From: an uncultured Psychroserpens sp.
GTDB lineage: Bacteria; Bacteroidota; Bacteroidia; Flavobacteriales; Flavobacteriaceae
DNA length: 64,000 nt
Assembly: GCF_947500255.1 (NCBI RefSeq)
Contig: NZ_CANMRL010000001.1
Location: 1,116,001 to 1,180,000 of the forward strand
Direction of reading: 5' to 3'
This document shows, one piece after another, positions 9,058 through 56,622 of this stretch (within the stretch, counting starts at the first letter, position 1; each line of letters opens with the position of its first letter). The position numbers were made by a program, and so were the translations under genes. Below the pieces are notes generated by a model that saw nothing but the letters and a program-made list of their open reading frames with translations, was not told where the DNA came from and did no database searches.

Positions 9058-9180
9058 AGTTACTATAATAAGTAATCATCTGCAAAAGTAGATGATATTT
9101 AAGGATTATCTTATTTTTGATAGCAAAATTCATACCTTATCATAAGATTTCCGTTTAAACGGAAACCAAAATACGTTTAC

Positions 9181-9582
9181 ATGAAGAAAATTGAACATAT
9201 TGGTATTGCTGTAAAAGACCTTGAAGCGTCTAATACGTTGTTTGCTAAACTCTTTGGAAAAAAGCATTATAAAATTGAGGCTGTAGAGAGTGAAGGCGTT
9301 ATGACCTCTTTTTTTAAGGCAGGACCAAATAAAATTGAGTTGTTGCAAGCAACCAATGCAGACAGCCCAATAGCAAAATTCATTAAAAAAAAAGGTGAAG
9401 GCATTCATCATATTGCCTTTGCGGTAAAAGATATAGAAAAAGAAATCGAACGTTTAAAAGGCGAAGGATTTAAAATGATACATGAGAAACCCAAGAAAGG
9501 AGCCGATAATAAATTGATTGCCTTTTTGCATCCAAAAGCTACAAATGGCGTTCTCATTGAATTATGTCAGGATATTGACTAA
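9181..9582 (+). CDS. mce: Methylmalonyl-CoA epimerase
   Basis: 133 aa VOC-superfamily enzyme converting (R)- and (S)-methylmalonyl-CoA in propionate/succinate metabolism. Two VOC half-repeats begin at KIEHIGIAVKDLEAS and GIHHIAFAVKDIEKE, giving metal-binding His residues, with KIELLQ and GVLIELCQ supplying the Gln/Glu ligands and base. Length is normal. Stands alone, divergent from rbfA and followed by a tRNA gene. Confidence 0.92.
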   Translation: MKKIEHIGIAVKDLEASNTLFAKLFGKKHYKIEAVESEGVMTSFFKAGPNKIELLQATNADSPIAKFIKKKGEGIHHIAFAVKDIEKEIERLKGEGFKMIHEKPKKGADNKLIAFLHPKATNGVLIELCQDID

Positions 9583-46365: not shown

Positions 46366-47808
<1,443 letters not shown>

Positions 47809-47911
47809 CTACTACCAAAGTCTAACTAATAAGACTTCTTTATGATTACCTTGCAAATATTTAATCCTATTGCGCAATCTTTCTGCGTAGTATAATTATT
47901 TTTTAAAAAAG

Positions 47912-47984
47912 TAAGCAAAGCAAGATTCGAACTCGCATCTTCAGGATCGTACCCTAATGTTTTATCCAATTAAACTATATGCTT
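47912..47984 (-). tRNA. tRNA-Arg(ACG)
   Basis: Acceptor AAGCATA/TTTGCTT (one T:T mismatch), D stem GTTT/AAAC, anticodon stem TTAGG/CCTGA with loop GTACGAT (ACG), T stem GCGAG/CTTGC, T-loop TTCGAAT, A73. Starts 16 nt after the ykuK stop and is the last tRNA before rtcB. A34 would need TadA for decoding all CGN. Confidence 0.88.
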
Positions 47985-48000
47985 TTTTTAGTGCCTAAGT

Positions 48001-48486
48001 TTATACCACTTTATCTGCACAAGATGAACTTGCAAAAGCATAAGGTTTTGCTTTAAAAATAAAACCCATTCCTAAGATGTAGCCCATTGCATCTTTTAGA
48101 GCTACATTAGATTGAAATTTCGGATCTGTATTAATATCGGCATGAACCTCAAGTTCTACATTGTACTTATCTAAAATGTCACAAATTGAATATGCGACTT
48201 CTACAGACATCGTTACTTCCTTAAGCATACGTTCTTTAATACGAATATGTTTTGTCCCTTTGTAATTTCTCATAAACATAAAACCACCTTTTCCTTCACG
48301 CAGTATCACAATAACTGTTGCATATTCAACATGAGATTTATAGGCTTGAGAATCTGAACCAACACAAACCTTTAAACGATGTCCGTTTTTTTGTTCTTTT
48401 ACAATAGCATTTTCGATTACTTTGGTGATGGGTTGGTCAAAAACCTTCCCACTAAAGTTTCTCCATTTTTGTTGTACAATTTTCAT
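48001..48486 (-). CDS. RNase H-like YkuK (DUF458) family protein
   Basis: 161 aa. RNase H fold as in Bacillus YkuK: first strand with Asp in KVCVGSDSQAY, a following EYATVIVI strand, Asp in EVHADINTD, and a final Asp in SSSCADKVV. The acidic residues are compatible with metal-dependent nuclease activity, but activity of the family is not established. Embedded between tRNA-Phe (33 nt upstream) and tRNA-Arg (16 nt downstream) on the same strand, so it must be cut out of a mixed tRNA-mRNA transcript. A tRNA-processing role is suggested by position. Confidence 0.85.
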   Translation of the reverse strand: MKIVQQKWRNFSGKVFDQPITKVIENAIVKEQKNGHRLKVCVGSDSQAYKSHVEYATVIVILREGKGGFMFMRNYKGTKHIRIKERMLKEVTMSVEVAYSICDILDKYNVELEVHADINTDPKFQSNVALKDAMGYILGMGFIFKAKPYAFASSSCADKVV

Positions 48487-48518
48487 CTCTATTTAGTTTC
48501 TATTTAATAATTATGTTG

Positions 48519-48591
48519 TGGAACAAACTGGGATCGAACCAGTATTTTCGGAGCTTCAATCCGACGCATAGACCAACTTTGCTATTGTTCC
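48519..48591 (-). tRNA. tRNA-Phe(GAA)
   Basis: Acceptor GGAACAA/TTGTTCC, weak three-pair D stem GCA/TGC, anticodon stem TCGGA/TCCGA with loop TTGAAGC (GAA), T arm ACTGG-TTCGATC-CCAGT, A73, followed by CAA. Confidence 0.9.
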
Positions 48592-48596
48592 TATTG

Positions 48597-48668
48597 GGTG
48601 ATTTCGAGATTCGAACTCTGTTCTCCTCATTCACAGTGAGGTACTTTACCATATAAGCTAAAACCACC
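48597..48668 (-). tRNA. tRNA-His(GTG)
   Basis: G-1 plus GTGGTTT/AAATCAC acceptor with C73, the tRNA-His identity pair. Anticodon stem CCTCA/TGAGG, loop CTGTGAA (GTG). The T stem CAGAG/CTCGA pairs in only three positions, an unusual weakness. TTCGAAT T-loop. Confidence 0.88.
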
Positions 48669-48677
48669 ATATTTTAG

Positions 48678-48750
48678 TTCTGACAAAAGGAATCGAACCT
48701 TTATCTGCAAACGTATCAGGCCTGCGCTTTACCAATTAAGTTATGTCAGA
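48678..48750 (-). tRNA. tRNA-Ile(GAT)
   Basis: Perfect acceptor TCTGACA/TGTCAGA, anticodon stem CAGGC/GTTTG (two G:T), loop CTGATAC (GAT), T arm AAAGG-TTCGATT-CCTTT, A73. D stem has three pairs only. Confidence 0.88.
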
Positions 48751-48755
48751 GTTTG

Positions 48756-48826
48756 TTTACCCGATAGGATTCGAACCTATACCTCAAGAGTCAAAGTCTT
48801 GAATGCTGCCTTTACACCACGGGTCA
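48756..48826 (-). tRNA. tRNA-Gln(TTG)
   Basis: Acceptor TGACCCG/CGGGTAA with one G:A mismatch at 2-71 and U1:A72 as usual in tRNA-Gln. Anticodon stem CAAGA/TCTTG, loop CTTTGAC (TTG), T arm ATAGG-TTCGAAT-CCTAT. Confidence 0.87.
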
Positions 48827-48832
48827 TTGTTG

Positions 48833-48906
48833 TACTTCGCCTTGGATTCGAACCAAGAAATCACAGTGCTTAAAACTGATGCCTTTTCCAGTTTGGCCAA
48901 CGAAGT
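48833..48906 (-). tRNA. tRNA-Leu(TAA) without long variable arm
   Basis: Acceptor ACTTCGT/GCGAAGT, anticodon loop TTTAAGC (TAA) in stem CAGT/ACTG, T arm CTTGG-TTCGAAT-CCAAG, A73. Only about 6 nt lie between the anticodon stem and the T stem, so the long class II variable arm is absent. Confidence 0.88.
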
Positions 48907-48911
48907 ATTTG

Positions 48912-48985
48912 TGCAGGAAGAGAGACTCGAACTCTCAAAACCTTGTTTCTAAGACAAGAGCGTATGCCAATTCCGCCATTCCTGC
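48912..48985 (-). tRNA. tRNA-Leu(TAG) without long variable arm
   Basis: Acceptor GCAGGAA/TTCCTGC perfect; D region TGGCGGAATTGG typical of tRNA-Leu; anticodon stem CTTGT/ACAAG, loop CTTAGAA (TAG); T arm GAGAG-TTCGAGT-CTCTC; A73. The variable loop is only GTTTT, so again no class II arm. Confidence 0.9.
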
Positions 48986-48990
48986 AATTG

Positions 48991-49064
48991 TTGAGATGTC
49001 AGGAATCGAACCTGAATCTTTCGCCTTATGAGAGCGACGCTCTACCAGATTAAGCTACATCTCA
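48991..49064 (-). tRNA. tRNA-Met(CAT)
   Basis: Acceptor TGAGATG/CATCTCA perfect, D stem GCTT/GAGC, anticodon stem TCGCT/GGCGA, loop CTCATAA (CAT), T arm TCAGG-TTCGATT-CCTGA, A73. Lacks the C4/C5 signature of lysidine tRNA-Ile, so Met is preferred; no initiator GGG/CCC pairs. Confidence 0.88.
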
Positions 49065-49069
49065 ATATG

Positions 49070-49142
49070 TTGAGGTAATAGGATTCGAACCTATGACTTT
49101 CACGATGTAAGCGTGACGCTCTTACCACTGAGCTATACCTCA
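49070..49142 (-). tRNA. tRNA-Val(TAC)
   Basis: Perfect acceptor TGAGGTA/TACCTCA, D stem GCTC/GAGC, anticodon stem TCACG/CGTGA, loop CTTACAT (TAC), T arm ATAGG-TTCGAAT-CCTAT, A73. Confidence 0.93.
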
Positions 49143-49147
49143 ATTTG

Positions 49148-49219
49148 AATTCCGTAGGAGAATCGAACTCCCATCTGCTGATAGAAAGTCAACCGTCTTA
49201 ACCATTTGACCAACGGAAT
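49148..49219 (-). tRNA. tRNA-Glu(TTC)
   Basis: Acceptor ATTCCGT/ACGGAAT perfect, D stem GTC/GAC, anticodon stem GTTGA/TCAGC, loop CTTTCTA (TTC), T arm TGGGAG-type with TTCGATT. T73 in place of the usual G. Confidence 0.88.
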
Positions 49220-49231
49220 ATGTTTTTTATG

Positions 49232-49306
49232 GCGTTACCCTATTGGGTCAGGCTTTCGGTAGTCGCTCTCTACGAGGAGCTCCAACAGTACCTCAATCCT
49301 TAACGC
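49232..49306. repeat. Dispersed repeat element, copy 2, inside the tRNA array
   Basis: Shares the AGTCGCTCTC..GAGGAGCTCCAACA core with 36782-36861. Bounded by GCGTTA (49232-49237) / TAACGC (49301-49306). Fills the longest gap between array tRNAs (Glu to Asp). Confidence 0.65.
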
Positions 49307-49312
49307 AAATTG

Positions 49313-49384
49313 CGGTTCATACGAGAATCGAACTCGTATCTCCCAAGAGACAGTCGGGAAGGATAGCCATTACCCCAATGAACC
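49313..49384 (-). tRNA. tRNA-Asp(GTC)
   Basis: Acceptor GGTTCAT/ATGAACC perfect, anticodon stem CCCGA/TTGGG, loop CTGTCTC (GTC), T arm ACGAG-TTCGATT-CTCGT, G73 as required for AspRS. Confidence 0.9.
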
Positions 49385-49409
49385 AGTTTTGTATATCTAA
49401 TGTCTGTTG

Positions 49410-49491
49410 TGGGAATGATAGGATTCGAACCTATTTAGCAATAGCACCAGTTTTACAGACTGGCTCAACTCTCCAACGTTGACGTATTCCC
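49410..49491 (-). tRNA. tRNA-Tyr(GTA)
   Basis: Acceptor GGGAATA/CATTCCC (last pair mismatched), four-pair D stem TCAA/TTGA, anticodon stem CCAGT/ACTGG, loop CTGTAAA (GTA), extended variable region of about 12 nt as in bacterial tRNA-Tyr, A73. Confidence 0.9.
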
Positions 49492-49499
49492 TTATGTTG

Positions 49500-49573
49500 A
49501 GACAAGGATGAGATTTGAACTCATAAAGATCAGTTTTGCAGACTGACGCCTTAACCAATTCGGCCACCTTGTC
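49500..49573 (-). tRNA. tRNA-Cys(GCA)
   Basis: Perfect acceptor GACAAGG/CCTTGTC with U73, the CysRS identity base. Anticodon stem TCAGT/ACTGA, loop CTGCAAA (GCA), T arm ATGAG-TTCAAAT-CTCAT. Confidence 0.92.
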
Positions 49574-49577
49574 TTTG

Positions 49578-49649
49578 CGATACCGATAGGACTCGAACCT
49601 ATAACCTGTTGGTTAACAACCGACTGCTCTGCCGTTGAGCTACGATATC
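49578..49649 (-). tRNA. tRNA-Asn(GTT)
   Basis: Acceptor GATATCG/CGGTATC, D stem GCTC/GAGC, anticodon stem GTCGG/CCAAC with one C:A mismatch, loop TTGTTAA (GTT), T arm ATAGG-TTCGAGT-CCTAT, G73. Confidence 0.9.
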
Positions 49650-49655
49650 ATATTG

Positions 49656-49728
49656 TGGAGCTACGGAGACTTGCACTCCATTCTGCGAGTTGCAAACCCA
49701 CTGTTTTGGCTTGTTAAACTATAACCCC
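49656..49728 (-). tRNA. tRNA-Ala(TGC)
   Basis: Acceptor GGGGTTA/TAGCTCC with the G3:U70 pair that specifies alanine, A73. D stem GTTT/AAAC, anticodon loop TTTGCAA (TGC), T-loop TGCAAGT in place of TTCRANN. The altered T-loop is exceptional in this array. Confidence 0.88.
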
Positions 49729-49737
49729 AATTTTTAG

Positions 49738-49824
49738 CGGAGAGTAAGAGAATCGAACTCTTACTGCATTTAAGCAGACTTGCTTAGCAGGCAAGCGCAA
49801 CAAACCAATATTTGCCTACTCTCC
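49738..49824 (-). tRNA. tRNA-Ser(GCT)
   Basis: Perfect acceptor GGAGAGT/ACTCTCC, D stem GCAA/TTGC, anticodon stem CTTGC/GCAAG, loop CTGCTAA (GCT), long variable arm CTGC/GCAG, T arm with TTCGATT, G73. A full class II tRNA-Ser. Confidence 0.93.
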
Positions 49825-49838
49825 AATAATTATTTAGT

Positions 49839-49913
49839 CTGAGAGACAGGGTTGACTTCGTCTCTCCTGTTGTATCTCATTGCCAATCAAATTCAAGTAA
49901 ACTTGATTTGATT
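49839..49913 (-). pseudogene. Partial duplicate of tRNA-Pro 3' end plus hairpin
   Basis: CTGAGAGACAGG (49839-49850) repeats the 3' end of tRNA-Pro (49921-49932) but the T-loop is lost. Instead GAGAGAC/GTCTCTC forms a 7-bp hairpin (49841-49866). A second hairpin follows: AATCAAAT-T-CAAG / CTTG-ATTTGATT (49885-49913). Possibly a degenerated or reduced tRNA. Confidence 0.5.
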
Positions 49914-49919
49914 GTTTCG

Positions 49920-49992
49920 TCTGAGAGACAGGATTCGAACCTGCAACCTCTCGCTTCCAAAGCGAGTAAACTAGCCGTCGTTCTCCTCTCAG
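49920..49992 (-). tRNA. tRNA-Pro(TGG)
   Basis: Acceptor CTGAGAG/CTCTCAG with the C1:G72 pair typical of bacterial tRNA-Pro, A73. D stem GAAC/GTTT, anticodon stem CTCGC/GCGAG, loop TTTGGAA (TGG), T arm GCAGG-TTCGAAT-CCTGT. Confidence 0.92.
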
Positions 49993-49997
49993 TTTTG

Positions 49998-50139
49998 CGG
50001 AAGGAGTGGGAGTCGAACCCACACGAGTCGTAATCTCCGAACAGTTTTAACTCAAAGAATATTATTTCTATAAATACGATTCGTTGAATTCGAACCCTCA
50101 TTTCAAAACTGTGGCCACCGCCTATTGGCTTGCCCTTCC
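49998..50139 (-). tRNA. tRNA-Ser(TGA) interrupted by a 55-nt insertion in the anticodon loop
   Basis: Acceptor GGAAGGG/TCCTTCC, D arm AGCC/GGC, T arm GTGGG-TTCGACT-CCCAC, G73 and an 18-nt variable region, as in tRNA-Ser. The anticodon arm is split: ACAGTTTTGAAA (50101-50112) and ACTGT (50041-50045) are separated by 50046-50100. Removal gives stem ACAGT/ACTGT with loop TTTGAAA (TGA) and an 87-nt tRNA-Ser. Three flanking A residues let the junction slide to the canonical 37/38 intron site. Confidence 0.8.
50046..50100 (-). other. Candidate 55-nt intron of tRNA-Ser(TGA)
   Basis: Too short for a group I intron. In the unspliced form ACAGTTTT and AAAACTGT extend the anticodon helix to 8 bp. Internal short hairpins TTCG/CGAA and TATTT/AAATA are seen. 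A strict bulge-helix-bulge could not be drawn. Confidence 0.6.
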
Positions 50140-50146
50140 TAGTTTG

Positions 50147-50221
50147 TTGACCTGATGGGAATCGAACCCATGACCTCGACCTTAAAAGGGCCTTGCTCTA
50201 ACCTTGCTGAGCTACAAGTCA
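50147..50221 (-). tRNA. tRNA-Lys(TTT)
   Basis: First tRNA of the array in transcription order. Acceptor TGACTTG/CAGGTCA, D stem GCTC/GAGC, anticodon stem AGGCC/GGTCG (terminal A:G mismatch), loop CTTTTAA (TTT), T arm ATGGG-TTCGATT-CCCAT, A73. Confidence 0.92.
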
Positions 50222-50249
50222 ATATGTTTATTTCAATACACACCATAAA

Positions 50250-50279
50250 AAAAGCACCTCGTTTACGGAAGGTGCTTTT
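50250..50279 (-). terminator. Terminator/attenuator between the leader and the tRNA array
   Basis: AAAAGCACCT/AGGTGCTTTT perfect 10-bp stem followed on the minus strand by a run of T. It lies between the promoter at 50456-50486 and the first tRNA, so it could attenuate the array. Confidence 0.85.
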
Positions 50280-50302
50280 CTTAATTTTATAAATACATCA
50301 AC

Positions 50303-50395
50303 TCATGTACCTATAACCTTCCTATAGTATATGTTTAATTCGGCATCACAACTAAATATGACCTCTATTTGCTTCGGTTCGAGCGACCAGATCAT
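50303..50395 (-). CDS. Candidate 30-codon leader frame upstream of the tRNA array
   Basis: ATG at 50395, TGA at 50303, beginning MIWSLEPKQIEVIFSC. It lies between a promoter and a strong terminator, the arrangement of a leader peptide. No family recognised and no clear ribosome-binding site, so translation is uncertain; the RNA may matter more than the peptide. Confidence 0.3.
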   Translation of the reverse strand: MIWSLEPKQIEVIFSCDAELNIYYRKVIGT

Positions 50396-50455
50396 GTACT
50401 GAATTATATGTTGTAAATAATTTCGCATTATTATTATGTTTGTTTTTTGTTGGTG

Positions 50456-50486
50456 CAAATATGAAATGAATTTTTTAAATACACAA
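50456..50486 (-). promoter_or_regulatory. Predicted promoter of the tRNA array
   Basis: On the minus strand TTG (50486-50484), 20-nt spacer, CATATTTG (50463-50456), close to TAnnTTTG. The same TTG-N20 arrangement precedes the tRNA at 9643. Predicted start near 50450. Confidence 0.5.
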
Positions 50487-50668
50487 GAAATTTTTGATTT
50501 AATTTACTGATAATCAAATAGTTATGTTAAATTTAGACAATAAAATTCCTGTCCGTTTTTTAACGGATAATGTACATGTTATACAATAGTCTGTCTCCCA
50601 ATTGTTTCACTGTTTATTAAATCTCTATTTTACGTTTTATTGTTTCATAATCACTTTTATAAAAAATT

Positions 50669-50700
50669 TAAAAAAAAACGTCCAACTTTTAGGTTGGACG
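50669..50700 (-). terminator. Terminator downstream of the metallophosphoesterase gene
   Basis: CGTCCAAC/GTTGGACG perfect 8-bp stem, then nine or more T on the minus strand. Confidence 0.88.
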
Positions 50701-50736
50701 CTTCATATTACGGTTTTAATAGTATTTAAATCATAT

Positions 50737-50856
50737 TCAACTCTTAAAAATAGATACAAAGCGTCCTTGTAGGGAATTCAGTAAAATGACTGCCCATTTA
50801 TAATCGCATTCACTAAAACGCGACATCGGTTGTTTATGTATCTGTTGTTTTACCAT
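50737..50856 (-). CDS. Candidate 39-codon small protein
   Basis: ATG at 50856, TGA at 50737, beginning MVKQQIHKQPMSRFSECDYK. A -7 element TATATTTG (50897-50890, minus strand) lies upstream and a terminator at 50669 downstream. Unknown function; may be an untranslated tail of the phosphoesterase transcript. Confidence 0.3.
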   Translation of the reverse strand: MVKQQIHKQPMSRFSECDYKWAVILLNSLQGRFVSIFKS

Positions 50857-50935
50857 TTTATATTGTAAATATACTTTTTATTTATACTGCAAATATAAGT
50901 CCAATAATACGCATTGTTTTTACGTAGTAAATTAT

Positions 50936-51502
50936 TTATTCATTTTTAGATGGTGGCTCCCATATTTTTTTACTCATAATCGCTTTGACTTCTTCGTAGG
51001 TTATCGGATAGAAATCGTGACAATCTACACCAACATCAAAACTGTTCATCGTTGGATCGTCGGTTAAACTTCCATGTGAATGGCCATAAAGGTGCCATGT
51101 TCCTCTAAAGCTTGAACGCCATACACGCATTGCGTAATGCAAGAGTATGATTTTTTGCTTACCATTTGGCGCCTCTTCATCATTAACATTGAGTTCGAAA
51201 TAATCTTTTATCCATTCAAATCGGTTTGGGTTTGCCAAGGCAGCACCTTCGTGATTGCCTCGAATTAAAAAGATATGTCCGTTTAATTGCTCAAGTATGT
51301 CTCGCATTCGCTCAGCTTTACAGAGTCCGAAATCACCTAAATGATAGACCTTGTCATGTTTATTAACTCGACTATTCCAGCGTTTTATGAGTTCTTGGTC
51401 CATGTCTTTTACACTACCAAATGGACGATTGGTGAATTTTATAATATTCTCGTGACCAAAATGATGGTCTGAAGTGAAATATATGTTTCTAGTTTTATTC
51501 AT
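50936..51502 (-). CDS. Calcineurin-like metallophosphoesterase
   Basis: 188 aa. All metal-binding motifs of the metallophosphoesterase fold: YFTSDHHFGHENII (DxH), YHLGDFG (GD), IRGNHEG (GNHE), LHYAMR and YGHSHGSL (GHxH). Related stand-alone enzymes act on phosphodiesters or phosphomonoesters, including nucleic-acid ends; the substrate here is unknown. Downstream of the TPR gene (32-nt gap) on the same strand as the tRNA array and rtcB, so an end-processing partner to the ligase is plausible but untested. Confidence 0.88.
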   Translation of the reverse strand: MNKTRNIYFTSDHHFGHENIIKFTNRPFGSVKDMDQELIKRWNSRVNKHDKVYHLGDFGLCKAERMRDILEQLNGHIFLIRGNHEGAALANPNRFEWIKDYFELNVNDEEAPNGKQKIILLHYAMRVWRSSFRGTWHLYGHSHGSLTDDPTMNSFDVGVDCHDFYPITYEEVKAIMSKKIWEPPSKNE

Positions 51503-51534: not shown

Positions 51535-52083
51535 TTAATCCTTCTTCTTTTTTTGCTTCCCTTTTTTTGTTTTCTTCTTTTTGGAAGCTTTCTTTTTCTT
51601 TGGTTTTATCTTGTTTTTAACTCTTGTTATTTCAGAATCGATAAACGCCATAAAACTGTTGTTGTATACATACAACTTTGCTTTTTTAAAAGTTTTCAAT
51701 GCTTCTTTATACGCTTCTTGGCATTCTAAAAGCTGTGCCTGTAATACAATAAGCTCGCCTTTTTGAATTGACTTTACTGTAAATGCAAAATCGATTAGTT
51801 TTTGCGCTTCATCATAATCATGATTCCAAATCAAAACCAAGATATATTTAGGATATACTTTCACAAAATCCATCTTACTAGCTAAGGCTTCAGCAAAATA
51901 ATATTTGGCTTTTTCGTAATCGCCTAGCTGTTCCGATTGTAATCGTCCCATGAGATATAATGCATATGCATTAGTGTTCTCGTAAGACAACGCATAATTT
52001 AGATTTTCTACAGTTTCTTCTAAATCGTATGGATAAGCATCTATGGCTTTAAGCACGTAATTGTTTAACAAATTCGTGTCCAT
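51535..52083 (-). CDS. TPR protein with Lys-rich tail
   Basis: 182 aa. TPR-like helical pairs (about 10-150: AYALYLMGRLQSEQLGDYEKAKYYFAEAL, first part) and a strongly basic C-terminal tail of about 25 residues, nearly all Lys. A protein-binding scaffold with a nucleic-acid-binding tail is suggested. Co-directional with the metallophosphoesterase, rtcB and tRNA array. Confidence 0.8.
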   Translation of the reverse strand: MDTNLLNNYVLKAIDAYPYDLEETVENLNYALSYENTNAYALYLMGRLQSEQLGDYEKAKYYFAEALASKMDFVKVYPKYILVLIWNHDYDEAQKLIDFAFTVKSIQKGELIVLQAQLLECQEAYKEALKTFKKAKLYVYNNSFMAFIDSEITRVKNKIKPKKKKASKKKKTKKGKQKKKKD

Positions 52084-52205
52084 TGTTTTTTTACTATTTT
52101 AATAATTCATTTTTTGCGACATATAAGTTCGCTAAAGCCATTTAACGGCTTGATATTTTAACTGTTTTGGAGGAGGTTTAGCAGACTTGCTAATGACTGA
52201 AAACA

Positions 52206-52243
52206 AAAAATCCGAAACAGTTAAACAAGTGCTTCGGATTTTT
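52206..52243 (-). terminator. Terminator of the candidate small RNA
   Basis: AAAAATCCGAA/TTCGGATTTTT perfect 11-bp stem, 16-nt loop and T-run on the minus strand; no annotated gene directly upstream on this strand, which points to a short transcript. Confidence 0.85.
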
Positions 52244-52391
52244 CATTATGTTTTGAAAAGTATATTAGCTATACGCTCGAAGCATCACAGAATGGGTTTT
52301 TCCCACTGGATTTCCTGAAATAGGTATGAATAAATACATAGCTTCGTGTTTTTGTTAATACTAATTTTTTTTCCTGAATTGTTTAATTCTT
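52206..52391 (-). ncRNA. Candidate structured small RNA (about 185 nt), with a possible 24-codon frame
   Basis: On the minus strand a promoter (52397-52427) and terminator (52206-52243) bracket a transcript that can fold: CGAAGC..GCTTCG closes hairpins GTAT/ATAC and AGTGGG/CCCATT. A frame from ATG at 52339 to TAA at 52265 (MYLFIPISGNPVGKTH...) also fits. I cannot assign it to a known RNA family. The rest of the 52084-52593 gap holds nothing else recognised. Confidence 0.45.
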
Positions 52392-52427: not shown

Positions 52428-52593
52428 AATTTATTTTTTCATTTTCAGAAAATTATATGTCTTAATACGTAGTATTAACTTTTTTTGAAAAATCAAAGGG
52501 TTAATGCAAATTTTTCATTTTTGATCTAATTTTCTTTCTACGCAATTTAATTGCGTATATTTAATTTCAGTATAAAAAGCCCTCTAAATTTAT

Positions 52594-54900: not shown

Positions 54901-56622
54901 ATGGCGGTTAACAAAAACGCATTAATTCGATATAAAACCATTGATAAATGTCTTCAAAATAATTTTAGGCAATGGACGCTTAACGACTTGATTGAAGCTT
55001 GTTCTGATGCGTTGTATGAATATGAAGGGAAAGATGTTGATGTAAGCAAGCGAACCGTTCAATTAGATATTCAAATGATGCGAAGTGATAAGTTAGGTTA
55101 CAATGCGCCAATTGTGGTTTATGATCGAAAATTTTATAAATATGAAGATACAAATTATAGCATTACTAATAGTCCCATTTCAAATCAAGATTTAAGTAAA
55201 TTATCTGAGGCGGTTTCGTTTTTAAAACAATTTCAAGGGTTCTCGCATTTTGCTGAATTGGGCAGTATGGTTCAAAAACTTGAAGATCATGTTTACACAC
55301 AACAAACACATGAAAAATCACTCATAGATTTTGAAAAGAACGACAACTTAAAAGGTCTGGAATTTCTGGATGAACTCTATCAATTTATTTTGAAAAGACA
55401 AGCTATTGAGATGACGTATCAATCATTTAAAGCTAGACAAGAAAGCACTTTTAGTTTTCATCCCTATCTGTTAAAAGAATTTAGGAATAGGTGGTTTGTT
55501 ATAGGCAAACGAAAATCTTCAGAAGGGATTATGAACTTGGCTCTAGATCGCATTATTTCAGTAGAAAAAAGTAATAAAACATTTGTTGCAGATAAAAGCT
55601 TTAATTCGGAAACATATTATAAACAGGCGATTGGTGTTTCTGTGAGTCCAAACATAAAACCAGAGAATGTATTGCTTTATGTTAACCATAAGCAAGCTCC
55701 TTATGTACTTACAAAACCATTTCATTATTCTCAAAAAGAAGTAGCGCGAGATAACTATGGTGTGACTATTTCATTGGATGTACAATTGAATTTTGAGTTG
55801 GAAAAAGAAATTCTAGGTTTAGGAGAAGGTATAAAAGTAATAGCACCAGAGCGTTTAAAACGAAATATTAAAGAACGTTTATATGATGCTGTAGATGCTT
55901 ATGAAACTGAAATTAACGACAAAAATCTGAGAACTATTTCGAAACGATTGGAATATAAAGGTTTTGGGATTTTGAATCATGTATATTCTAAGCGAGATAT
56001 TAGAAAGTTAAAGACAAAACTTGATGCCTATATTAAGCTTAACAACGAACAGGTTTTTGGGATGCGAGAAGTTCTTTTAAAACTACCCGAACTCAAACCT
56101 ATTTTATTCAATAAAAATTTCAAAAAACTCATAAAGTCTATCGATAAAGATGCTTTTTTAACAAAAGCTATTTATTTTGATAAGTCCCCTAAAGATAATT
56201 GGTATGTGACTTGGCATCAAGATATACCTATTAATGTTTTAAAAAAGGCAGAAACCAAAGGGTTTAGTGCATGGACCAATAAAAAAGGGGTTGTTAGTGT
56301 TATTCCGCCAGAAGAAATTTCTAAAAACACATTCTCTATGCGCATTCATTTAGACGATACCACAATCAAAAATGGAGCGCTCAAAGTTATTCCTGGATCG
56401 CATCAAAAACGATTAAACACTGAAGAAATTAAGCTAATAACGATGAATTCTATTCCGTTTGTAAGTGAAGTTGGTTCTGGAGGAGTACAATTGTTAAAAC
56501 CCTTATTACTTCATGCGTCTTCTGAATCTAAAGTTCAGCGTAGACGACGTGTATTACATTTGGAGTTTGCGTCTATAGAATTACCAAATGGATTAGAATA
56601 TGCTGAAAAGGAATTATTGTAA
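54901..56622 (+). CDS. WYL-domain regulator fused to a phytanoyl-CoA dioxygenase-like domain
   Basis: 573 aa. Residues 1-330: winged-helix N-terminus (WTLNDLIEACSDALYEYEG, SKRTVQLDIQMM) plus WYL domain (AIEMTYQSF, FRNRWFVIGKRKSS) and the usual C-terminal WCX region ending VIAPERLKRNIKERLYDAVDAYE. Residues 345-573: PhyH-type Fe(II)/2-oxoglutarate dioxygenase with WHQDIP (HxD), GALKVIPGSH and LLHASSESKVQRRRRVLHLEF (second His and Arg). All three iron ligands and the 2OG Arg are seen, so it may be active. A sensor-regulator with an oxygenase domain is an unusual pairing. Confidence 0.87.
   Translation: MAVNKNALIRYKTIDKCLQNNFRQWTLNDLIEACSDALYEYEGKDVDVSKRTVQLDIQMMRSDKLGYNAPIVVYDRKFYKYEDTNYSITNSPISNQDLSKLSEAVSFLKQFQGFSHFAELGSMVQKLEDHVYTQQTHEKSLIDFEKNDNLKGLEFLDELYQFILKRQAIEMTYQSFKARQESTFSFHPYLLKEFRNRWFVIGKRKSSEGIMNLALDRIISVEKSNKTFVADKSFNSETYYKQAIGVSVSPNIKPENVLLYVNHKQAPYVLTKPFHYSQKEVARDNYGVTISLDVQLNFELEKEILGLGEGIKVIAPERLKRNIKERLYDAVDAYETEINDKNLRTISKRLEYKGFGILNHVYSKRDIRKLKTKLDAYIKLNNEQVFGMREVLLKLPELKPILFNKNFKKLIKSIDKDAFLTKAIYFDKSPKDNWYVTWHQDIPINVLKKAETKGFSAWTNKKGVVSVIPPEEISKNTFSMRIHLDDTTIKNGALKVIPGSHQKRLNTEEIKLITMNSIPFVSEVGSGGVQLLKPLLLHASSESKVQRRRRVLHLEFASIELPNGLEYAEKELL

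Follow-up and report, generated by a model that had tools for sequence, protein, structure and literature searches.

Why should a flavobacterial genome hold nineteen tRNA genes, packed on one strand, next to the gene for an RNA ligase? The question is raised by an array in a 64,000-nucleotide (nt) stretch of an uncultured Psychroserpens sp. (NCBI RefSeq assembly GCF_947500255.1; contig NZ_CANMRL010000001.1, positions 1,116,001 to 1,180,000 of the forward strand); this whole stretch is hereafter called the window, and coordinates count from its first letter. An initial annotation, made from the letters alone, had read the array as a reserve or resistant tRNA set coupled to RNA repair by way of the neighboring rtcB gene. 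On the comparative evidence below, we consider it probable that the array is an inducible spare tRNA set situated in an RNA-repair island and that the leader peptides encoded upstream of it act as attenuators, which would sense a shortage of any charged tRNA.

The array spans 47911-50221 on the minus strand. ARAGORN recovered 17 of its tRNAs, and Rfam added Ala(TGC) at 49656-49728, giving 18 array tRNAs at the gathering score (34.2 to 75.9 bits). The 19th, Ser(UGA) at 49997-50139, was recovered by ARAGORN solely when a 55-nt insert in its anticodon loop was skipped. All 19 of the tRNAs initially listed are present with their anticodons, one of them as an interrupted gene, and Gly, Thr, and Trp are missing from the array as had been claimed; rtcB as the next gene downstream and the embedded YkuK-type gene were likewise matched by PF01139 and PF04308, respectively. 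The close packing was also confirmed, with a measured spacing of mostly 3 to 9 nt in place of the 5 to 10 nt first given. Larger gaps separate Glu from Asp (92 nt, with a Flavo-1-like repeat), Ser(GCU) from Pro (94 nt), and Tyr from Asp (24 nt), and the YkuK-type gene fills that between Phe and Arg. Related arrays are found in other genera; the array is real and more than a product of chance. Its genes and the two protein-coding genes just named are as follows.

50146..50221, minus strand: tRNA-Lys(UUU), first array gene (ARAGORN, Rfam)
49997..50139, minus strand: tRNA-Ser(UGA), interrupted in the anticodon loop at 37/38 (ARAGORN, introns allowed)
49312..49992, minus strand: tRNAs Asp, Tyr, Cys, Asn, Ala, Ser(GCU), and Pro (ARAGORN, Rfam)
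48518..49219, minus strand: tRNAs Phe, His, Ile, Gln, Leu(UAA), Leu(UAG), Met, Val, and Glu (ARAGORN, Rfam)
48001..48486, minus strand: YkuK-type RNase H-like protein, inside the array (PF04308, 119.5 bits)
47911..47984, minus strand: tRNA-Arg(ACG), last array gene (ARAGORN, Rfam)
46366..47760, minus strand: rtcB1, RNA ligase, 464 amino acids (aa) (PF01139, 126.6 bits)

Does the cell depend on these genes for decoding? Among the best 150 of 366 candidates scored, at least 53 tRNAs reach the gathering score genome-wide, 18 in the array and at least 35 elsewhere, and for all 19 array isoacceptors a separate housekeeping copy lies elsewhere in the genome. Since every array isoacceptor has such a copy, the array is a spare set, and its description as a reserve stands, none of the isoacceptors being encoded in the array alone. 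The array versions of Leu(UAA) and Leu(UAG) are 75 nt long and lack the long variable arm, versus 83 to 86 nt for the housekeeping Leu tRNAs; the comparison to mitochondrial sets holds loosely in this respect. We surveyed loops and stems in 484 tRNAs from 35 arrays, close relatives included (L181 with L240, the window with L201; L numbers denote loci and G numbers genomes). Few of these arrays include Thr (0.03) or Gly (0.14). Relative to the housekeeping genes of the window genome, array anticodon loops depart at positions 32, 37, or 38 in many isotypes, mainly at 37: Asp and Glu have U37 in 30/30 each versus A37; His (26/28), Gln, Pro (25/25; one Pro loop in the reference is itself an array copy), Arg(ACG), and Leu(UAG) (32/35) have A37 versus G37; and Phe (21/27 listed) and Leu(UAA) (21/27) have G37 versus A37. 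Lys, Met, Trp, most Gly, and most Tyr loops show no difference. The loop changes therefore suggest the resistance proposed in the initial annotation for many isotypes, but not for these last ones.

What could switch a spare set on? The leader region between the array and the upstream gene (50222-50935), which the initial annotation had overlooked, contains two tandem units, each an open reading frame (ORF) encoding a leader peptide (LP) followed by a terminator, and a third unit lies upstream of a gene for a TPR protein.

50737..50856, minus strand: leader peptide LP1, 39 aa, 19 amino-acid kinds (ORF and composition)
50760..50766, minus strand: candidate antiterminator in LP1, GGACGCT, complementary to the T1 arm AGCGTCC (p 0.004 versus shuffled tails)
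50670..50700, minus strand: terminator T1, between LP1 and LP2 (leader inspection)
50303..50428, minus strand: leader peptide LP2, 41 aa, all 20 amino acids (ORF and composition)
50316..50322, minus strand: candidate antiterminator in LP2, GGAAGGT, complementary to the T2 arm ACCTTCC (p 0.02 versus shuffled tails)
50247..50275, minus strand: terminator T2, directly upstream of the array (leader inspection)
52205..52339, minus strand: third leader unit, LP3 (52265-52339, 24 aa) and a terminator, upstream of the TPR gene (leader inspection)

This layout recurs in relatives. With units picked by eye in 19 array-upstream regions, unit 1 was found in 18/19 and unit 2 in 18/19, each a short ORF and then a terminator before the array. 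The ORF of unit 1 has 33 to 42 codons and its terminator is mostly of the GCGTCCAA...TTGGACGC type, while that of unit 2 has 39 to 47 codons (longer in three cases) and a terminator mostly of the GCACCTCC or GCATCTCC type; the stop codon precedes the terminator by 24 to 47 nt in LP1 and by 26 to 30 nt in LP2. Within 30 nt upstream of LP1, 16 of 18 loci have an AT[AC]TTTG box, which we take to resemble the Bacteroidetes -7 element; the window is one of the two without it. Arrays directly after the TPR gene mostly have unit 1 upstream of that gene, together with another unit of ~25 codons. A survey of 80 TPR loci (the best 80 of 346) found at least five tRNAs downstream of the TPR gene in 16, two to four in 4, one in 19, and none in 41, and by hand count the LP1 type occurs in 14 of the 16 loci with at least five tRNAs versus 13 of the 64 others. 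A leader scan of 29 array-free TPR or rtcB2 loci (28 distinct; 16 represented by 3.5 kb only) gave four matches, all judged unrelated by eye, at a cut-off of 17 kinds that misses 4 of the 18 known LP1. A genome scan with the T1 pattern returned no match and was uninformative, as it missed the window's own T1 too. In L181, the LP2 terminator region (9125-9196) has a weak match to the Rfam Thr_leader (25.8 bits, below the gathering score of 55).

Two properties of these units would fit attenuation. The first is an element in the tail of the ORF whose sequence is complementary to the terminator's 5' arm; the complementarity surpasses that of shuffled tails at p < 0.05 in 15/18 LP1 and 7/18 LP2 (mean z of 2.65 and 2.09, respectively). 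From the 3' end of the element to the last base of the stop codon is 15 to 33 nt in LP1 (21 to 26 nt in most) and 13 to 35 nt in LP2, and element and arm change together across loci (GGAAGGT/ACCTTCC in the window, CGGAGA/TCTCCG in L116, GGGAGA/TCTCCC in L121, and AGACGCTT/AAGCGTCT in L184). The second is the variety of amino acids. Random codons matched in base composition give 16.13 kinds where LP1 has 18.43 (n = 23), 16.64 where LP2 has 18.22 (n = 23), and 15.98 where TPR-direct LP1 has 19.6 (n = 10); measured against windows of real proteins, the values are 18.06 versus 15.73 for LP1 and 18.11 versus 16.49 for LP2. The excess over the length-matched expectation is found in the ORF frame (+2.33 for LP1, +1.78 for LP2, and +3.87 for TPR-direct); the two remaining frames give -0.64 to +0.71. 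LP1 and LP2 together spell all 20 amino acids in 8/17 loci, and so do 6/9 TPR-type LP1 in one set, among them that of L198, a locus without an array; a run of 38 random codons would include every amino acid with a probability of 0.0033. This full count is reached by dissimilar sequences (window LP2, L184 LP1, L193 LP2, L194, L195, and L198), and Cys and His are present in 36/36 leader peptides. As the leaders are partly related by descent, these P values do not come from independent trials. The feature that is kept thus appears to be residue variety and not peptide sequence, as would be expected of a pure codon sampler, yet such variety without sequence conservation is weaker proof of translation.

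From these elements we propose the following scheme. Transcription would start just upstream of LP1 and meet two serial intrinsic terminators, each after a short ORF. A ribosome completing the ORF would cover its tail, allowing the terminator hairpin to form and keeping the array off. Were an aminoacyl-tRNA to become scarce, by the action of an anticodon nuclease, by starvation, or with a blocked ribosome, the ribosome would stall early; the freed tail element would then pair with the 5' arm of the terminator, and RNA polymerase would read through into the spare tRNAs. With all 20 amino acids covered by LP1 and LP2 of the window, this would be a general sensor and not one for a single amino acid. 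The array tRNAs would restore decoding, RtcB (with RtcB2-PrfH and RlaP in many relatives) would repair cleaved RNA, and the altered anticodon loops may let the array tRNAs escape the nuclease. The array with its redundancy and recurring neighbors, the tandem units with their in-frame variety of residues and their complementary elements, and the loop differences are observed in the sequences; where the promoter lies, which way the switch works, that loss of tRNAs induces the array, and that its tRNAs are charged and withstand the nuclease are what we infer from them. Anticodon nucleases as the trigger would fit the leader peptides. A stronger version, in which the tandem leaders were selected to spell the whole amino-acid alphabet so that any tRNA loss releases a complete nuclease-surviving spare set along with repair enzymes, seems somewhat less likely than not. 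Spare tRNA arrays are known, their triggers mostly not, and here the trigger would be readable from the DNA. If the scheme is true, the locus encodes a generic alarm for a damaged translation apparatus that is genetically tied to RNA repair, and the purpose of bacterial and phage tRNA arrays becomes directly testable with a reporter.

Several observations weigh against this scheme. Minimum-energy folding favors the terminator in 34/36 units, even if the tail is free, and the antiterminator in 2/36; hence, the switch would need to be kinetic or assisted, and its direction is drawn from the logic of known attenuators, as equilibrium folding does not yield it. The kinship among leaders means that the z values overstate certainty. 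Differences per codon position between leaders of the same length are 77/129/124 for LP1, 130/138/142 for LP2, and 46/65/72 for TPR-direct, with a third-position share of 0.376 (LP1), 0.346 (LP2), and 0.393 (TPR-direct LP1), far below that of ordinary protein. The pN/pS of 0.49 to 0.63 is biased low by the prior choice of pairs at 60% amino-acid identity and is not counted as support. The amino-acid enrichment of the leaders tracks the array tRNA set weakly (rho 0.43, p 0.057, 20 amino acids). In the TPR-locus survey, the 13 loci of the LP1 type with few or no tRNAs retain the leader regardless. The stems of the array tRNAs are slightly worse than those of 36 housekeeping tRNAs (0.51 versus 0.22 unpaired positions of 20-21). 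Within Psychroserpens itself, arrays are absent or decayed: G267 has no tRNA in the 20 kb around rtcB, and G045 retains degenerate array pieces only.

How do these leaders compare with known regulators? Like the his, trp, and thr attenuators, they combine a short ORF, a downstream terminator, and a complementary element in the ORF tail. Classical attenuator leaders repeat codons of one amino acid, whereas those of the window type span nearly all 20, occur in tandem, and precede tRNA genes. According to the accessible text of PMC10272220, the trn operon of Anabaena PCC 7120 (26 tRNAs, on a megaplasmid) is likewise a long array present besides the housekeeping set and linked to rtcB, with which it shares the repressor TrcR; it is silent, is induced by translation-targeting antibiotics, and helps under translational stress, and a slipin gene is among the genes derepressed. 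Unlike the window array, it is under a DNA-binding repressor, has its rtcB elsewhere in the genome, and belongs to another phylum, and that text makes no mention of a leader-peptide attenuator for it. No description of such an array-leader system was found in the literature searched, subscription papers having been mostly outside its reach. An alternative is that the leaders sense ribosome-targeting antibiotics in place of tRNA loss, in the manner of drug-resistance genes under leader control, and that the array aids recovery from drug stress, as proposed for Anabaena. Drug-responsive leader-peptide attenuators are indeed known, and the antibiotic induction of trn fits such a role. A drug sensor, however, needs no broad set of amino acids, and the leaders hold 15 to 20 kinds, with a mean above 18; moreover, inspection by eye across loci revealed no arrest motif common to LP1 and LP2. 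We regard this alternative as unlikely.

Is the company of the array as regular as its leaders? We searched rtcB1 in 299 Flavobacteriaceae genomes, taking a threshold of at least 60% identity over nearly the whole protein for a locus. Some match was found in 65/299 genomes, and 36 loci passed, including the window; the other 35 have 60 to 90% identity. Clustering the genes of 38 stretches fetched around rtcB1 showed that a WYL-WCX regulator (cluster C1; 31 loci), the TPR protein (20), an SPFH/Band-7 slipin (10), two RlaP nucleotidyltransferases (10), and PrfH (8) recur there, as do a DUF434-DUF5616 protein and a DEDD exonuclease. PADLOC, run on ten island proteins, matched the WYL protein alone. 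Independently of rtcB, a DNA similarity search for arrays covered 397 genomes, and true arrays were picked by eye among the matches listed. They were found in at least 21 genomes (G000, G363, G240, G122, G148, G385, G353, G019, G392, G057, G337, G102, G388, G050, G350, G177, G277, G320, G156, G120, and G096), from which G045 (degenerate) and G175 (very short) are left out. Among these matches, rtcB lies within the fetched stretch in 13/21 array genomes (9/9 stretches fetched around an rtcB match and 4/12 centred on the array; in G120, a further genome, rtcB1 is ~10 kb from the array), and an rtcB, prfH, rlaP, or TPR gene lies near the array in 20/21. The array of G096 has as neighbors only a slipin gene and a small ORF family, and G148 has an array with no match in the rtcB1 search. 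The linkage of rtcB to arrays in other Flavobacteriaceae, which the initial annotation had proposed looking for, thus exists, and its suggested coupling to RNA repair has comparative support as a frequent link, though not an obligatory one, as G148 shows. The tRNA order of the window is nearly kept in L120 and L121. Taken together, the comparisons largely bear out the initial annotation, and related arrays often sit in an RNA-repair island comprising rtcB, rtcB2-prfH, rlaP, TPR, slipin, YkuK-type, and WYL genes. When 345 genomes were drawn from across the phylum, the TPR protein had strong matches solely in Flavobacteriaceae and one other family of the same order.

In many relatives, the island includes prfH (TIGR03072, above cut-off) beside a second rtcB, the RtcB2-PrfH module. 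This pair was not found at the window locus, where no gene received a PrfH label and the genome has one RtcB match. The accessible text of PMC9223846 states that E. coli RtcB2-PrfH protects from colicin E3 and not from tRNA-targeting toxins; a tRNA array could fill this gap.

An array of this kind might instead be a relic, or a mobile antidefence cluster of tRNA genes derived from a phage or plasmid, with no function in the cell today. Not every member of the genus has it, several close relatives being left with Pro, Tyr, and fragments alone, and the tRNA arrays of phages (accessible text of PMC10264068) and of mycobacterial plasmids (that of PMC12803027) are thought to serve antidefence. For phage tRNAs, the former source reads anticodon-loop changes as evasion of nucleases, and phage clusters resemble the window array in being large redundant sets with anticodon loops changed relative to the host. 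In contrast to them, the window array has repair genes of the cell as neighbors and leader units ahead of it (phage genes were not sought). The low count of unpaired stem positions in the 484 array tRNAs of 35 arrays (0.51 on average, as given above) and the recurrence of leaders and neighbor genes also speak against a relic, and the TPR partner has no confirmed viral relative, phage genes as such not having been searched for. A viral origin of this partner was considered and dropped, 70 viral stretches having fitted a pattern with none confirmed. On balance, we deem the relic or mobile-cluster reading quite improbable. That these are ordinary clustered housekeeping tRNA genes, near rtcB by happenstance, is scarcely credible, for although dense tRNA arrays exist in other bacteria (accessible text of PMC5966550), a housekeeping array is refuted by the redundancy of 19/19 isoacceptors, the Leu architecture and the loops differ, and a member of the same genus (G267) has rtcB without nearby tRNAs.

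Several close relatives (loci L062 to L072) have, in place of an array, a broken-looking stretch between the TPR gene and slipin or rtcB, with Pro, Tyr, and isolated T-arm or D-arm pieces (e.g., L068:11900-12780 and L063:12000-13140). It is alike in L063 and L068, which belong to different genera, and may have been turned into another RNA.

What, then, is the insert that interrupts tRNA-Ser(UGA)? It belongs to a recurrent kind, here termed E1.

50047..50101, minus strand: E1 insert, 55 nt, GAA|ATG...TAA|, in the tRNA-Ser(UGA) anticodon loop

E1 inserts are ~45 to 55 nt long and alike at both ends, mostly GAA|ATG...TAA|. A sequence model built from 16 inserts gave 39 matches at E < 1e-3 in 61 loci, ~33 of them distinct after removal of duplicate loci; as judged by eye, the anticodon loop (37/38) accounts for 14, the T loop (59/60) for 12, and antisense copies in the anticodon loop for 7, with the window, L181, L184, L201, and L120 among the carriers. 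The arrays of the window and Psychroserpens luteolus are 87 to 98% identical in blocks, and in tRNA-Val one has E1 and the other the exact empty site. Without E1, the exons of Ser(UGA) fold with 20/21 stem pairs, and 13/17 candidates have no more than one stem position unpaired once E1 is removed; of the other four, one has three unpaired, one was misread by the pattern, one is a fragment, and one folds poorly. Among the Ser(UGA) genes of five arrays, mean identity is 81% for the exons and 70% for E1, although E1 is the more alike in 3/10 pairs, all involving L120.

The distribution of E1 extends beyond the arrays. In genome searches scoring the best 150 or 95 candidates per genome, ten genomes selected for their arrays had at least 19 matches at E < 1e-3, of which 18 lie in described arrays and one in G363, where the site is a T loop of a second, small array. 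Weaker matches in G353 mark a dispersed ~370-bp intergenic repeat with an E1-like part (L301-L310 and L314-L316), one copy of which lacks that part and shows the empty site GGAGAAAATTT. In 60 genomes of the family, at least 12 matches were found, 2 in arrays and 10 outside; these ten start at model position 13 or 14, the first 12 or 13 positions being missing. No tRNA lies within 1.5 kb of the eight off-array matches fetched (L319-L326), and no obvious transposase was seen by eye among the ORFs near off-array E1, a check that involved no family search. Confinement of E1 to array tRNAs was rejected on account of the G353 repeat and the 10 of at least 12 matches outside arrays.

Group I introns measure ~200 nt or more and have a conserved core. 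E1 was rejected as a group I intron or known ribozyme, being ~45 to 55 nt long and with no intron or ribozyme family of Rfam matching L181 8500-11600 at E values of up to 1. The archaeal tRNA introns described in the accessible text of PMC4090602 are comparable in that E1 occurs at 37/38 and 59/60 and recurs in different tRNAs. Unlike them, E1 has no conserved pairing (its alignment yields no consensus base pair), some copies are antisense, E1-like copies occur outside tRNA genes, and the tRNA-splicing endonuclease family PF01974 was found in 0/10 genomes. The antisense copies, Tyr copies yielding the anticodon GAA, the damaged T stem in the Ser gene of L120, and the lack of this endonuclease in the ten genomes argue against splicing; the intron-like positions speak in its favor. 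Given the E1-like copies outside tRNA genes, we find it very improbable that E1 inserts are introns sealed by the neighboring RtcB. E1 is probably a small mobile element favoring the anticodon and T loops of array tRNAs rather than an intron, and to us it resembled no described element. Another type of insert, E2 (~45 nt, shorter in L190), lies between the D arm and the anticodon arm of tRNA-Leu(UAA) in L112, L115, L120, L186, and L190 and has a CAAAAACAATTGTTTTTG-like hairpin.

The remaining island genes of the window lie upstream of the leader region.

50936..51502, minus strand: metallophosphatase adjoining the TPR gene (PF12850)
51535..52083, minus strand: TPR protein with a lysine-rich tail, a frequent array neighbor (family and locus comparison)
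54901..56622, plus strand: WYL-WCX regulator fused to a PhyH domain (domain search)

The metallophosphatase is also found beside the TPR gene in L181, L201, L240, L241, L277, and L280, and the YkuK-type gene recurs in or near the array in L120, L121, L181, L184, L190, L201, L202, and others. The nearest match of the window TPR protein is that of Psychroserpens luteolus XSD401 (98%). In the window, the WYL-WCX regulator is fused to a phytanoyl-CoA dioxygenase-like domain; in many relatives, it stands alone (~335 to 340 aa). Palindromes of the form TACGCAA..TTGCG, noted by eye at 47860-47890 upstream of rtcB and at 52540-52560 upstream of the TPR gene, are possibly operators of the WYL regulator.

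The tRNA-Glu gene (49147-49219) is very different in P. luteolus (L201), the arrays being otherwise near-identical, which is a sign of gene swapping within arrays. Between Ser(GCU) and Pro, positions 49834-49918 contain a partial 3' copy of tRNA-Pro with a palindromic spacer, like spacers in L127, L188, and L201. The gap between Glu and Asp is occupied by a further element.

49231..49310, minus strand: Flavo-1-like dispersed repeat between Glu and Asp (DNA search and Rfam)

This repeat (query 916-995) matches many Flavobacteriaceae genomes among the matches listed. Flavo-1 reaches the Rfam gathering score in neighboring loci and falls below it at window 49231-49310, where the ends of the repeat are complementary and resemble a tRNA acceptor stem.

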